Below are positions 4,174-57,266 of a DNA stretch of 64,000 bases, piece after piece. The notes beneath the pieces were generated by a model that was not told the origin of the DNA, did no database searches, and worked only from the letters and a program-made list of their open reading frames with translations. A program made the translations under genes and the position numbers. Positions within the stretch are counted from its first letter, which is position 1, and each line of letters starts with the position of its first letter. Location of the stretch: the NCBI GenBank assembly GCA_024222295.1, contig JAAEPF010000023.1:1-64000 (forward strand), read 5' to 3'. The stretch is from Actinomycetes bacterium (GTDB lineage Bacteria > Actinomycetota > Acidimicrobiia > Acidimicrobiales > Microtrichaceae).

Positions 4174-4227
4174 GACACCACGGCCGCACCCGACACCACT
4201 GCCGCGCCGGAGACCACTGCCGCCCGA
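4174..4227 (+). repeat. Three tandem 18-bp Thr/Ala/Pro-type repeats in an intergenic region
   Basis: Three 18-base units beginning GACACCAC or GAGACCAC lie between the FAD oxidoreductase stop and the next gene. Read on the plus strand they give DTTAAP, DTTAAP, ETTAAR, the composition of linkers in secreted actinobacterial lipoproteins. No start codon with a signal peptide precedes them, so they look like a fossil linker or chance low complexity. No gene was found between 4107 and 4313. Confidence 0.45.
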
Positions 4228-4313
4228 ATGCAACAGTTCCGTGGGCTGAGCCGACGTCGCCTGCGACGCCCGAATGAGCGTCATTCCACCGAACGTCGCT
4301 ATTGTCGCCGGCC

Positions 4314-4988
4314 GTGAATCTGTATGAACGAGTCAAGGCAAGGACGCTGCGGCTCAAGCCCTCGATCAAGTCTGCCTACATGCCATATCTGGAGCTGGCC
4401 GGCTCCGCCCACCTCCAGGCGCTCAGCGACACCTATGACATGCAGCTCGTCGAGTCGAGCAAGGATCCGCTCCTCGCGAAGCTCGCACCACCATGGCTGC
4501 AGCGAATCGCCGGGCCAATGCTCGATGCTGGCGACTGGTACGCCATGGCGATCCTGCATGAAGGCGACGTGGTCGGGCGGGTGTGGATGGCGTTGCGCGT
4601 CCCACACGGCCCGGTCAACGGAGTCATGAACGTGCGGCTCGCCAACGACGAGGCATACGGATTCGATCTCTACATCGAACCCGAGCACCGCCGCGGAGAC
4701 ATCAGCAACTTCATGGCCTACCACTGCATCAACGAGCTACAGCTGCGTGGAGTGAAGGTCGGCTACACCCACCTCGATTGCGACAACGCACCGTCGGTCT
4801 TCTGGCACGCCGGAGTGGGGTTCAACACGATCCAGAGCTACAGCTACCTGAAGATCGGTGACCGGATTCACTGGAAGATCCCACTCTCGGACTCGCCCAG
4901 GTGGGGCCCGGTTTCGCGCCGAGGCCGCCATTCGGAGGCGCCCGACGAGCGGGTCGACCCCTTCGGCAACGCCCTTCTGCCCATCTGA
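4314..4988 (+). CDS. GNAT-like N-acyltransferase domain protein
   Basis: A protein of about 224 residues whose centre resembles a GNAT acyltransferase: strand WYAMAILHEGDVVGRVWMA, then YGFDLYIEPEHRRGDISNFM in the place of the acyl-CoA-binding loop, then GVKVGYTHLDCDNAPSVFWH and GVGFNTIQSYSYLKIG, the usual final strand and helix. The R/Q-x-x-G-x-G/A pyrophosphate loop is weak (EHRRGDIS). The start is GTG 4314 rather than TTG 4302, by codon preference; neither has a clear ribosome site. The last 35 residues are polar and probably disordered. The acceptor is unknown. It stands alone between two unrelated genes. Confidence 0.6.
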   Translation: MNLYERVKARTLRLKPSIKSAYMPYLELAGSAHLQALSDTYDMQLVESSKDPLLAKLAPPWLQRIAGPMLDAGDWYAMAILHEGDVVGRVWMALRVPHGPVNGVMNVRLANDEAYGFDLYIEPEHRRGDISNFMAYHCINELQLRGVKVGYTHLDCDNAPSVFWHAGVGFNTIQSYSYLKIGDRIHWKIPLSDSPRWGPVSRRGRHSEAPDERVDPFGNALLPI

Positions 4989-5081
4989 GCCTCGGCCGCG
5001 GCACAACAGGTGCGACCGCCTCGAGAGTGATCTTCAGTGCCTGGTGGACCCAGGTTGACCAAGCGGCCTCGCCAGTCAGGC

Positions 5082-6140
5082 TCAATCCGAGAGATGGCCG
5101 GCCGCCCGCCCTGCATAGGGAGGCAGGTCTAGGTAGCTCGCTATTCCGGGTTGGGCTGCCACCACGGCGGGAACCGCGCTCACGCAGTGCGTGGCGGTGG
5201 CGACGATGCCGGGGTTGCGGACCAGTCCGGCCGCAATCGACTCGGGGTGCCACCCGTGGAGCGTCATCGTTGTGGATGGATCGCCGGTGACCTCGACCTC
5301 GAAACGCTCACCCTCCGGCCCGAAGGACCAGGCGGGCTCCAGGTTCTCCTCGCCCATGAACCAGTTGGTCCGCACCGTTACGACCGGTTGGCCGTCGACG
5401 GTCGCCTCCCAGGTGAAACGCTGGGCGGCCACCCGGCCCGGTTCGATGGGCCCGATCGGTGAATCGATCGGCGCGGTGGCCAGCGACACGTCGTGACTGA
5501 CCCGCAGTTCCGGATCCGCGCGGAAGCCGAGTTCCGCCACGATCATCGCGATCGACTGGCCAAACCCGTCACCCAGCACCGCCGGCATGATGCTGGCCCG
5601 CGCCTCCGCGGGTGTGGCGCCGAACAACATGATGGGGCCAACCACATCCGGTGCGTCATAGGACCGGATGTCACTCCACTCCTCGGCGCGCACATGGGTG
5701 ATCGACTGCGACAGAGCCGACACGACCAGCGGAATGCGTTCGGTGACGCCGCCGGGATGGATGCCCGTGCCGTGCACGGTCGAGTTCCCCTCCCGACACG
5801 CGGCTTCGATGTCGGCTTCGTCGCGTCCTTTGGCAAAGAACCACCCGAGCGGGGTCACGACATTGGCGCCGGACGCGAGAATCGTGGCCACCACCTCCGG
5901 GTCGGCCATCACCGGCGAGTAGATCACGCAGTCAGCGCCGAGCTCCAGCAACTCTGCGACGTCGTTGGTGGCTTGCACGCCCACTGCCGGAACACCGATC
6001 AGCTCACCGACATCGACGCCGACCTTGTCCGGAGAATGGACCCAGCAACCGACCAGCTCGAGCTGCGGATGTGCCAGCACCCCCTGGATCGCCGCTGTTC
6101 CGACACCGCCCGTGGCCCACTGGATCACCTTGATCGACAT
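5082..6140 (-). CDS. NAD(P)-binding oxidoreductase of the dihydrodipicolinate reductase/diaminopentanoate dehydrogenase fold
   Basis: The first 130 residues form a Rossmann domain: IKVIQWATGGVGTAAIQG binds the nucleotide and ADCVIYSPV lies where DapB has its loop after strand 4. The C-terminal part resembles the 2,4-diaminopentanoate dehydrogenase-like DapB superfamily members that are common in mycobacteria and other actinobacteria, often in lipid or amino-acid catabolic settings. True DapB is about 250 residues and carries an SGTT-type lysine-biosynthesis motif, which is absent here, so this 352-residue protein is unlikely to make lysine. ATG 6140 starts directly at the Rossmann strand. A YdeI-like gene lies 18 bases upstream on the same strand. 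Confidence 0.75.
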   Translation of the reverse strand: MSIKVIQWATGGVGTAAIQGVLAHPQLELVGCWVHSPDKVGVDVGELIGVPAVGVQATNDVAELLELGADCVIYSPVMADPEVVATILASGANVVTPLGWFFAKGRDEADIEAACREGNSTVHGTGIHPGGVTERIPLVVSALSQSITHVRAEEWSDIRSYDAPDVVGPIMLFGATPAEARASIMPAVLGDGFGQSIAMIVAELGFRADPELRVSHDVSLATAPIDSPIGPIEPGRVAAQRFTWEATVDGQPVVTVRTNWFMGEENLEPAWSFGPEGERFEVEVTGDPSTTMTLHGWHPESIAAGLVRNPGIVATATHCVSAVPAVVAAQPGIASYLDLPPYAGRAAGHLSD

Positions 6141-11867: not shown

Positions 11868-11905
11868 GAGCCCGAGAGGAGAATCGAACTCCTGACCTGC
11901 TCATT
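11868..11905. repeat. Duplicated 3' half of tRNA-Thr (att-like direct repeat)
   Basis: These 38 bases are identical to 13282-13319, the 3' half of the tRNA-Thr gene from the anticodon loop to one base past the discriminator. One mismatch and four more matching bases follow. The sequence beyond does not continue the tRNA, so this is not a functional tRNA. A 3'-half tRNA copy in the same orientation is the usual mark left by an integrative element that used the tRNA as its attachment site. Confidence 0.8.
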
Positions 11906-12120
11906 GCGAGGTATCCGACACTGAACGGTGTGCGAACCCCGCCAAGCACCAAGGGACGAATGACCCCGGATGAACCGATACGGCCCCAGGCCTTTTTGCG
12001 CTGTGCCGAGTCGGTCTGCGAGGTCCTTGACCAGGTGGAAGGGTCGCCTGCGCTAGCGGATGTCCCCGGGTTTCGCGCCCGATGGCCACGGCGGAATCCT
12101 GGTGCTTCGGCCGGCGCCCG

Positions 12121-12909
12121 CTAGAGACCGAGCAGGTCCATCGTCGTGCGGATATAGCGCTCGCCGGTTTCGGAGACCGGGAAGGTGACGGCACCCCCGG
12201 CCCTGGTCAACTCGACCATCGGCCGGCCGCCGGCGGGTATCGCTACCTCGACCCGGTGGATCTCGTCCTCTCCGACCAGCAGTGGGACCCGTCTGCGGAT
12301 GCGGCGCCTGACGGGCTGCAGGAATCCGCAGGCACCGCAGATCGGAAGCGGGTGTGCGACGCGGCTGCATCGGCCACAGCGACGGATTCCGCAAACCACG
12401 CACGCCTCGGCAGGTTGCTCGCAGCGGTTGCATGTCTCGGTGCCGCAGTAGTTGCACTCGAGAGCGTGCTCGACGAGGTGCATCGACCGGTCGACCCGGA
12501 CTGTGTCGACGGACCGGCCCGTGTCGAACGCAGTGACGTATCCCTTGCAGCGGCCGGCCGGTACCAGGTAGTCGATCTCGACCCGGCCTTCGTCGAGTGC
12601 GAACAGGAAGTTGCGCCCGGCGCCGACAGACCAACGTTCCCTCACGTGCAGGTCCGCACGTGCTGCGGCAGCAGCTGTGGCGGGCTCGGCGCTGCCGGAC
12701 GATGCGTCGCCGAGCAGGATATCGACGGACCGGCTGATTCGGCGGCCACCCACCACACGGGGGCCCTCGACCAGATCCTCCACGCAGCCGCTTGCCAAAC
12801 CGGCGTCGAGGGGGGCCGGCGGAAGCATCAGCGGTACAGCCGCGAAGGACGCCCGTCGTGGAGTGGGCACCGGGTCGGATTTCACGATGTCGACGGTCTC
12901 GAACCGCAT
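12121..12909 (-). CDS. Unknown protein with five CxxC zinc-knuckle pairs
   Basis: I do not recognise this family. The 262-residue protein has a poorly defined N-terminal region with an Ala-rich stretch (near 78-85), a beta-rich middle (FLFALDEGRVEIDYLV), and between residues 152 and 194 five regularly spaced CxxC pairs (152/155, 160/163, 170/173, 178/181, 191/194), enough ligands for two zinc ribbons plus one pair. A very basic RRRIRRR follows at 201-207, then a beta-rich C-terminus. The pattern suggests nucleic-acid or protein binding, but that is inference. ATG 12909 is fixed by GGAGG nine bases upstream. It is the only gene inside the tRNA-Thr repeat-bounded segment, and an AT-rich region with an imperfect palindrome precedes it. 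Transfer is possible. Confidence 0.65.
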   Translation of the reverse strand: MRFETVDIVKSDPVPTPRRASFAAVPLMLPPAPLDAGLASGCVEDLVEGPRVVGGRRISRSVDILLGDASSGSAEPATAAAAARADLHVRERWSVGAGRNFLFALDEGRVEIDYLVPAGRCKGYVTAFDTGRSVDTVRVDRSMHLVEHALECNYCGTETCNRCEQPAEACVVCGIRRCGRCSRVAHPLPICGACGFLQPVRRRIRRRVPLLVGEDEIHRVEVAIPAGGRPMVELTRAGGAVTFPVSETGERYIRTTMDLLGL

Positions 12910-12940
12910 CAGCCACTTCCTCCATGGGGACACATTGTGC

Positions 12941-12956
12941 GGTCAATATGTTTACC
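12941..12956. promoter_or_regulatory. Imperfect palindrome upstream of the five-CxxC gene
   Basis: GGTCAATATGTTTACC is a palindrome with one mismatched pair, 32 bases upstream of the start codon, in a stretch (about 12930-12980) clearly richer in A and T than the neighbourhood. It could be an operator. No convincing -35/-10 pair was fixed. The remaining 13000-13240 shows no gene. Confidence 0.3.
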
Positions 12957-13247
12957 ATGACGTAACGATTTACATCGCCCTCAAGTTTCTGGCCAGGCTG
13001 GCTCGCCTTCACCTGGCTTCGTCGCACCCCTCGACTCTGAGATCCAGAGCTCCTTGCACGAGCAGGCTGTGAAAACGGTGCAGGTGGGCGGGGCAAGCCG
13101 CGAAACGTCGCCCCTCCCACAGCGAACGACCGTGCGGCACCCGAGCTGCGCGACTTGGACAATCAGACTCTTCACGGTTCCGCCTCCGGGCGGCCCCGCC
13201 CTCAGGGCAGTGCCGCCTCGACCTGCGGCTCCCCCTGTGCGAAATCG

Positions 13248-13266
13248 GCCAACTGATTCCGTTGGC
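13248..13266. repeat. Inverted repeat beside the tRNA-Thr 3' end
   Basis: GCCAAC and GTTGGC flank a seven-base spacer, ending 16 bases from the tRNA 3' end, on the islet side. It could be a weak terminator for the tRNA or a recombinase-binding site. It is too short to be decisive. Confidence 0.3.
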
Positions 13267-13282
13267 GTGGTCTGCTGATTCG

Positions 13283-13355
13283 AGCCCGAGAGGAGAATCG
13301 AACTCCTGACCTGCTCATTACGAGTGAGCCGCTCTGCCGACTGAGCTACTCGGGC
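13283..13355 (-). tRNA. tRNA-Thr (anticodon CGT)
   Basis: The minus strand folds as a complete cloverleaf: acceptor GCCCGAG/CTCGGGC, D-arm GCTC/GAGC, anticodon stem GCTCA/TGAGC with loop CTCGTAA (anticodon CGT, reading ACG), T-stem AGGAG/CTCCT with loop TTCGATT, and discriminator T. The terminal CCA is not encoded, unlike the tRNA-Pro in this window. Its 3' half is duplicated at 11868-11905. Confidence 0.95.
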
Positions 13356-57065: not shown

Positions 57066-57142
57066 CGGGTGGTGGCGCAGCTTGGCAGCGCGCCTCGTTC
57101 GGGACGAGGAGGCCGGGAGTTCAAATCTCCCCCACCCGACCA
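57066..57142 (+). tRNA. tRNA-Pro (anticodon CGG)
   Basis: Complete cloverleaf on the plus strand: acceptor CGGGTGG/CCACCCG, D-arm GCGC/GCGC, anticodon stem CCTCG/CGAGG with loop TTCGGGA (anticodon CGG, reading CCG), T-arm GGGAG/CTCCC with loop TTCAAAT, discriminator A and an encoded CCA. No 3'-half duplication was seen in the window. Confidence 0.95.
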
Positions 57143-57266
57143 TCTGGCACGCGGTGCCCGGTCCATCCGGGCGCCGCGTGCGCTGTTCTCGACCGGGTTC
57201 GCGGACTATCGAGTGAAATCCGTCGCGAAAGTCAAGGACGTCACGGGACCGTCCGATGCTAGGTAC

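Follow-up and report, generated by a model that had tools for sequence, protein, structure and literature searches.

A probable non-autonomous unit integrated at tRNA-Thr(CGT), one of a set of small units with a common attachment module

The window, i.e. the whole stretch of 64,000 nucleotides that was analyzed, harbors a complete tRNA-Thr gene, a single gene lying downstream of it, and a second copy of the tRNA 3' half. These features, all on the minus strand, are listed below in the direction in which the tRNA gene is read.

13282-13355, minus strand: complete tRNA-Thr (anticodon CGT) called by ARAGORN, 100% identical to the tRNA of genome G016; the putative target of integration, with its 3' half supplied by the inserted element
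13282-13319, minus strand: left copy of the 38-bp attachment core (tRNA 3' half), from the direct repeat
13235-13240, minus strand: possible left-arm vestige GCACAG, at +42 to +47 after the tRNA end; weak, 6 bases only
12919-12923, minus strand: GGAGG Shine-Dalgarno of the cargo gene, from the sequence
12121-12909, minus strand: single cargo gene, 262 aa with five CxxC motifs, in the same direction as the tRNA gene, with no relatives detected
11921-11933, minus strand: inner right arm GCACACCGTTCAG, at a conserved distance from the core (arm-plus-core search and alignment)
11868-11905, minus strand: right core copy, i.e. the displaced tRNA 3' half, from the direct repeat

Elsewhere in the window, at 57066-57156, ARAGORN calls a tRNA-Pro(cgg) on the plus strand and a tRNA-Gln(ttg) on the minus strand over nearly the same bases, and one of these two calls is probably false.

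The initial annotation had reported 38 identical bases in the same orientation as the tRNA-Thr 3' half, with an identity limit in the anticodon loop, and had read them as the trace of integration at a tRNA gene. Sequence and repeat comparison confirmed that the 38 bp at 11868-11905 match those at 13282-13319 base for base, in direct orientation and 1414 bp apart. They correspond to the last 38 bases (3' half) of tRNA-Thr(CGT), and identity ends directly beside the anticodon triplet 13320-13322. The stretch enclosed by the two cores, 11906-13281, is 1376 bp long. Searching for the core elsewhere in its own 3.76-Mb genome, as had been proposed, showed that tRNA-Thr(CGT) is otherwise matched only at ∼80% identity. 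With next-best matches no closer than this, at other tRNA-Thr genes, the 38-bp repeat is specific.

The islet (11906-13281) holds one convincing gene, as previously annotated. We prefer the 262-aa reading from ATG because it is preceded by GGAGG, 9 nt before the start codon, and its GC content by codon position (0.71/0.54/0.80) is similar to that of neighbor genes; a 270-aa reading from GTG is less likely. The AT-rich control region described initially was only partly recovered, since the bias of the islet is mild overall (62.6% GC versus 67.6% for the window), although there is a short AT-rich stretch at ∼12935-12975. No integrase is present inside the islet, for which tblastn with four integrases gave no credible match, in agreement with the earlier reading. 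The cargo protein has no relatives in genome contigs, viral contigs, plasmids, or phages; in 99 related genomes the only marginal match is in G044 (76 residues, E 4e-4). Among solved structures it matches only Midline-1 zinc fingers (E 0.47-0.6), and it has no Pfam match over cut-off, with only IBR below it. An AlphaFold model of the protein alone was unusable (pLDDT 32). A cross-brace or zinc-ribbon-like fold is suggested by the ten cysteines in five CxxC motifs and by the weak similarities to IBR and B-box. The previous hint at a role in host interaction or defense gained nothing from these searches, including PADLOC, where no defense model was matched. Toxin-antitoxin pairs, including AbiEi/AbiEii, are frequent in the sibling units described below. 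As a guess, the cargo protein might be a zinc-binding regulator or one part of a two-part system.

The genes tmk and holB and tRNA-Thr(CGT) are found together in the window's family and beyond, and the region after the tRNA is variable. In some genomes, e.g. G001, G004, G008, G009, G011, G014, G016, and G020, there is no second tRNA half within the fetched stretch (up to ∼20 kb), and in others one or more displaced tRNA-Thr halves follow the tRNA. Wherever the tRNA is on the contig, core copies of at least 30 bases always lie downstream and in the same orientation. G016, in which the tRNA is 100% identical to the window's and is accompanied by the same quinone-reductase neighbor, has no repeat and therefore represents an empty site. 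Comparison of the locus in relatives, which the initial annotation had called for, thus yielded tRNA-Thr without repeat (empty site), with other cargo, or with an integrase. The same gene order in distant relatives, which would have spoken for an old local duplication, was not found.

The inner right arm GCACACCGTTCAG adjoins the window's displaced tRNA half, which it precedes, and is not tRNA sequence. Arm plus core was found at 13 sites, all exactly 40 bp, in 10 of the 397 genomes of the order, spanning at least seven families, and a reversed-pattern control gave no sites. In a 395-genome sample of the class, the search returned only three already known sites and none outside the order. That the same arm-plus-core site occurs at tRNA-Thr in other families upholds the integration trace recognized at first. 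Neither the tRNA-Thr core nor the window-type arm plus core had a match in viral contigs. The 13-base arm used alone was too short to be informative, with ∼60 matches in 99 genomes versus ∼40 in the control; just one of 20 inspected matches lies directly at a tRNA, the one beside an integrase. When aligned, window-type sites display, in order, an outer arm GCACAGCGCTC, often a GACCTGC...GCAGGTC hairpin, an inner arm GCACASCGYTCAG, and the core. At the right end of the window the inner arm alone is intact, and the outer right arm is unrecognizable in the alignment. Intact relatives have a left arm GCACARCGYTC at +30 to +72 after the tRNA end, which in the window is at best vestigial. Because the outer right arm has decayed and the left arm is at best vestigial, the window copy is probably immobile, i.e. 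fixed now. We found no description of this attachment (att) module in the portions of the literature available to us. At one locus (L051, G048:C128), ARAGORN calls the right-end arm plus core of an integrase-bearing unit a second tRNA-Thr; an att site of this kind can be taken for a tRNA gene in annotation.

A candidate recombinase is a 312-aa tyrosine integrase encoded directly after tRNA-Thr(CGT) in G041, which has a relative in G048. This ∼310-aa family, which matches PF00589 and PF13495 (phage integrase), has 23 matches in 21 of the 397 genomes of the order at E ≤ 1e-55. A tRNA was called just upstream of 12 of these 23 loci (Thr-CGT five, Val two, Met two, Arg one, Ala one). The arm is tied to the ∼310-aa integrase because in nine of these 12 loci GCACARCGYTC (≤1 mismatch) lies 30-66 bp after the tRNA end. 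A helper integrase, which the initial annotation had envisaged, is thus supported, since some genomes have at tRNA-Thr a matching integrase accompanied by the same arm; the action of the helper in trans is a step that we infer. In our search of the order genomes, the family was absent from the window's genome, and it was not found in G000 or G002, both of which hold integrase-free units. Three PF00589 matches exist in the window's genome, all on contigs other than the window's, and they look like XerC, XerD, and an IS91-type recombinase. G048 carries a 7.8-kb unit of the window site type with the integrase inside, and G097 a 24.5-kb island at the same tRNA with the integrase reduced to a 41-aa stub. 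In G174 and G325, an integrase and an integrase-free unit are both present on separate contigs, which may belong to one island; no integrase directly adjoining an integrase-free unit was seen, including in these two genomes. The tRNA-Thr(TGT) islands L050 and L053 also carry integrases and are a different case from the tRNA-Thr(CGT) units.

Eight complete units, i.e. with both ends on one contig, contain no integrase by tblastn and range from 0.75 to 4.6 kb. These are the window unit (1414 bp core to core; one gene, 262 aa), the G002 unit (∼1.0 kb; PIN plus RHH-like), three tandem units in G322 (∼0.93, 0.95, and 0.75 kb; MNT/HepT, NYN, and RHH with a Fic-like fragment, respectively), and the units in G125 (∼1.1 kb; NYN), G274 (∼1.1 kb; GNAT, RHH), and G124 (∼4.6 kb). 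In G322, units 1 and 2 share their right-end modules at 99% identity over 124 bp, and units 2 and 3 at 89% identity over 130 bp. Despite this common ∼125-bp att module, the cargo of the three units is unrelated. The NYN proteins of G322 and G125 share 78% identity (versus 59% for topA and 48% for holB in the same genomes), and the RHH proteins of G322 and G274 share 64% (versus 56 and 46%, respectively). For these two cargo genes, which are the only ones compared, identity above that of core genes suggests, but does not prove, transfer of units, as slower evolution of the cargo could have the same effect. Cargo of other arrays includes DUF433/DUF5615, AbiEi/AbiEii, RES/Xre, and MNT/HepT pairs, and further LtrA, TetR, MFS, sulfatase, and glycosidases.

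A different arm type is found in genus g11 (G010, G026, G028, and G030), with up to four cores per contig at tRNA-Thr(CGT) (arrays L036-L038 and L042-L046, on G030:C38, C92, and C108; G026:C89; G010:C70 and C71; G028:C15 and C214). A conserved block of ∼90-100 bp that is not tRNA sequence and contains a near-invariant GTGCTCGA....GTGCGC stands before each displaced half, and some left ends have an inverted copy of the block ∼105-125 bp after the core. Across 33 family genomes, a sequence model of the block matched 15 times, always in these four genomes; 14 of the matches are right-end blocks of displaced halves and the fifteenth is a weak left-end match. The arm pattern (≤1 mismatch) matches mostly array sites in the 33 family genomes, and has no matches in the reversed control. 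In viral contigs it has 11 matches, which is about chance level by estimate, with integrase-like matches on three of these contigs. The g11 array loci contain no integrase-like ORF, and an integrase with the g11 arm was not found: 17 inspected integrase loci, with 3 mismatches allowed, showed only two poor, chance-like matches nearby. At a further locus, L039 (G003:C7, 950-11283), the four displaced halves have an arm type of their own, and the tRNA is on another contig; the units there hold AbiEi/AbiEii and a DUF433/DUF5615-like pair. At L107 (G010:C128, ∼4222-5850), a relative of the L038 cassette cargo (FG-GAP-like protein) lies with a left-end arm away from tRNA-Thr, and the right arm is broken off.

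Taken together, we consider that 11906-13281 is probably a non-autonomous unit integrated at tRNA-Thr(CGT), recombined by a trans-acting ∼310-aa tyrosine integrase and now fixed. The repeat, the missing integrase, the arm common to several families, the integrase with the same arm, and the tandem units with unrelated cargo are direct observations; action of the integrase on integrase-free units in trans, and excision, are what we infer from sequence comparison. Lacking an integrase of its own, the unit would comprise one gene together with an attachment site made up of the tRNA 3' half and the arms, and site-specific recombination immediately next to the anticodon would have brought it into tRNA-Thr(CGT). 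The incoming half would have restored the tRNA, with the old half displaced to 11868-11905. It would belong to a set of units in the order, occurring singly or in short tandem arrays, whose common att module would most likely be recombined by the ∼310-aa integrase provided in trans by other elements at tRNA genes. The units might move as circles, and decay of the outer right arm and left arm may have fixed the window copy.

Alternatively, the islet could be the remnant of a larger autonomous island that later lost its own integrase and most of its genes by deletion, an explanation that we hold to be possible, if doubtful. Indeed, the 41-aa stub in the G097 island shows that such deletion happens, the integrase-bearing unit in G048 has the same site type, and the window copy, with an unrecognizable outer right arm and an at best vestigial left arm, could when considered by itself have arisen by deletion. 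However, the siblings that measure 0.75-1.1 kb show clean arms and a single operon with no trace of an integrase, three of them being in tandem; independent deletions with the same endpoints in unrelated genomes are unlikely, and tblastn detected no integrase remnant in the window. It is very improbable that the units are cassettes of an integron-like system (IntI, attC) whose sites lie beside a tRNA by coincidence. Although they are small one-operon units in tandem, rich in toxin-antitoxin pairs, each with a ∼125-bp site and a hairpin near the core, their common core is a tRNA 3' half, they target a tRNA gene, and the recombinase with the corresponding arm is found at tRNA genes and matches the phage-integrase families PF00589 and PF13495. 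Finally, an old duplication of part of the tRNA without recombination has next to no likelihood, since, although duplicated 3' halves without cargo exist (in G034, at L124, C1, reverse strand, 1112-1284, the tRNA is immediately followed by two truncated tRNA-Thr copies spaced 65 bp apart, a local tandem duplication of the 3' half), such an event would not create an arm conserved at a fixed distance from the right copy across families and beside an integrase; the 38-bp repeat is an integration trace, not a local duplication.

A probable non-autonomous unit moved in trans invites comparison with integrons. Integron cassettes, including integrase-less clusters, are small one-operon units with a common site each, organized in tandem arrays with many toxin-antitoxin pairs, and their recombinase is elsewhere. 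Integron cassettes have an attC core and an attI target, whereas here the core is a tRNA half, the target is a tRNA gene, and arrays are short (≤4 cores per contig). We tentatively raise the possibility of a tRNA-anchored cassette system parallel to integrons, in which a trans-acting ∼310-aa tyrosine integrase would capture minimal one-operon, toxin-antitoxin-rich cassettes carrying a ∼125-bp module in tandem arrays at tRNA-Thr(CGT), across one order of largely uncultured bacteria and with at least one further arm type (g11). Should the units indeed move in trans, single genes would be captured at a tRNA gene with no integron involved.

The window islet is flanked by att sites and is without recombination or transfer genes, as cis-mobilizable elements (CIMEs) are; with regard to the origin of CIMEs from an ICE or IME by deletion, its arm type is common to integrase-bearing islands and the window has no integrase remnant. 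The known systems nearest to the units described here are the tandem islands downstream of ssrA in Dehalococcoides and the Methylopumilus islands discussed below. The former, as presented in the available part of PMC3146451, are CIMEs, 15 units of which have no integration module and are proposed to be mobilized with adjacent islands by accretion. Like them, the units described here are in tandem, bounded by RNA-gene 3'-end repeats, with a conserved motif just upstream of each. The integrase there, going by the same text (PMC3146451), is a serine recombinase at tmRNA that is present in about one in two units, whereas the candidate here is a tyrosine recombinase with an anticodon-side core in tRNA-Thr. 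In addition, most window-type units consist of a single operon, and units without an integrase predominate among the loci read. Recurring tRNA 3'-end repeats around variable cargo are also a feature of the additive flexible genomic islands with tRNA-Lys ends in the freshwater bacteria Methylopumilus, which contain 1 to 63 cargo genes and a 20-bp repeat; the part of PMC10872708 consulted describes neither att arms nor a cognate integrase. Tycheposons, defined in that same part by their own tyrosine recombinase and a size of 4-200 kb (PMC10872708), differ from the window islet, which is 1.4 kb and has no recombinase. As in the tRNA-targeted islands defined in Islander (PMC4383910, as far as consulted), the islet has a complete tRNA, a displaced downstream 3' fragment in the same orientation, and an anticodon-centered crossover. 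However, it contains no integrase gene (tblastn with four integrases, no credible match) and, with 1376 bp between cores, is shorter than 2 kb. The Islander catalog, according to the same text, rejects candidates without integrase or below 2 kb (PMC4383910). Its design thus excludes window-type units, and this may be why they have received scant notice. More generally, they are missed by standard island finders because an integrase and at least 2 kb are demanded, and the att module is a direct handle for finding such cassettes and for testing which integrase moves them.
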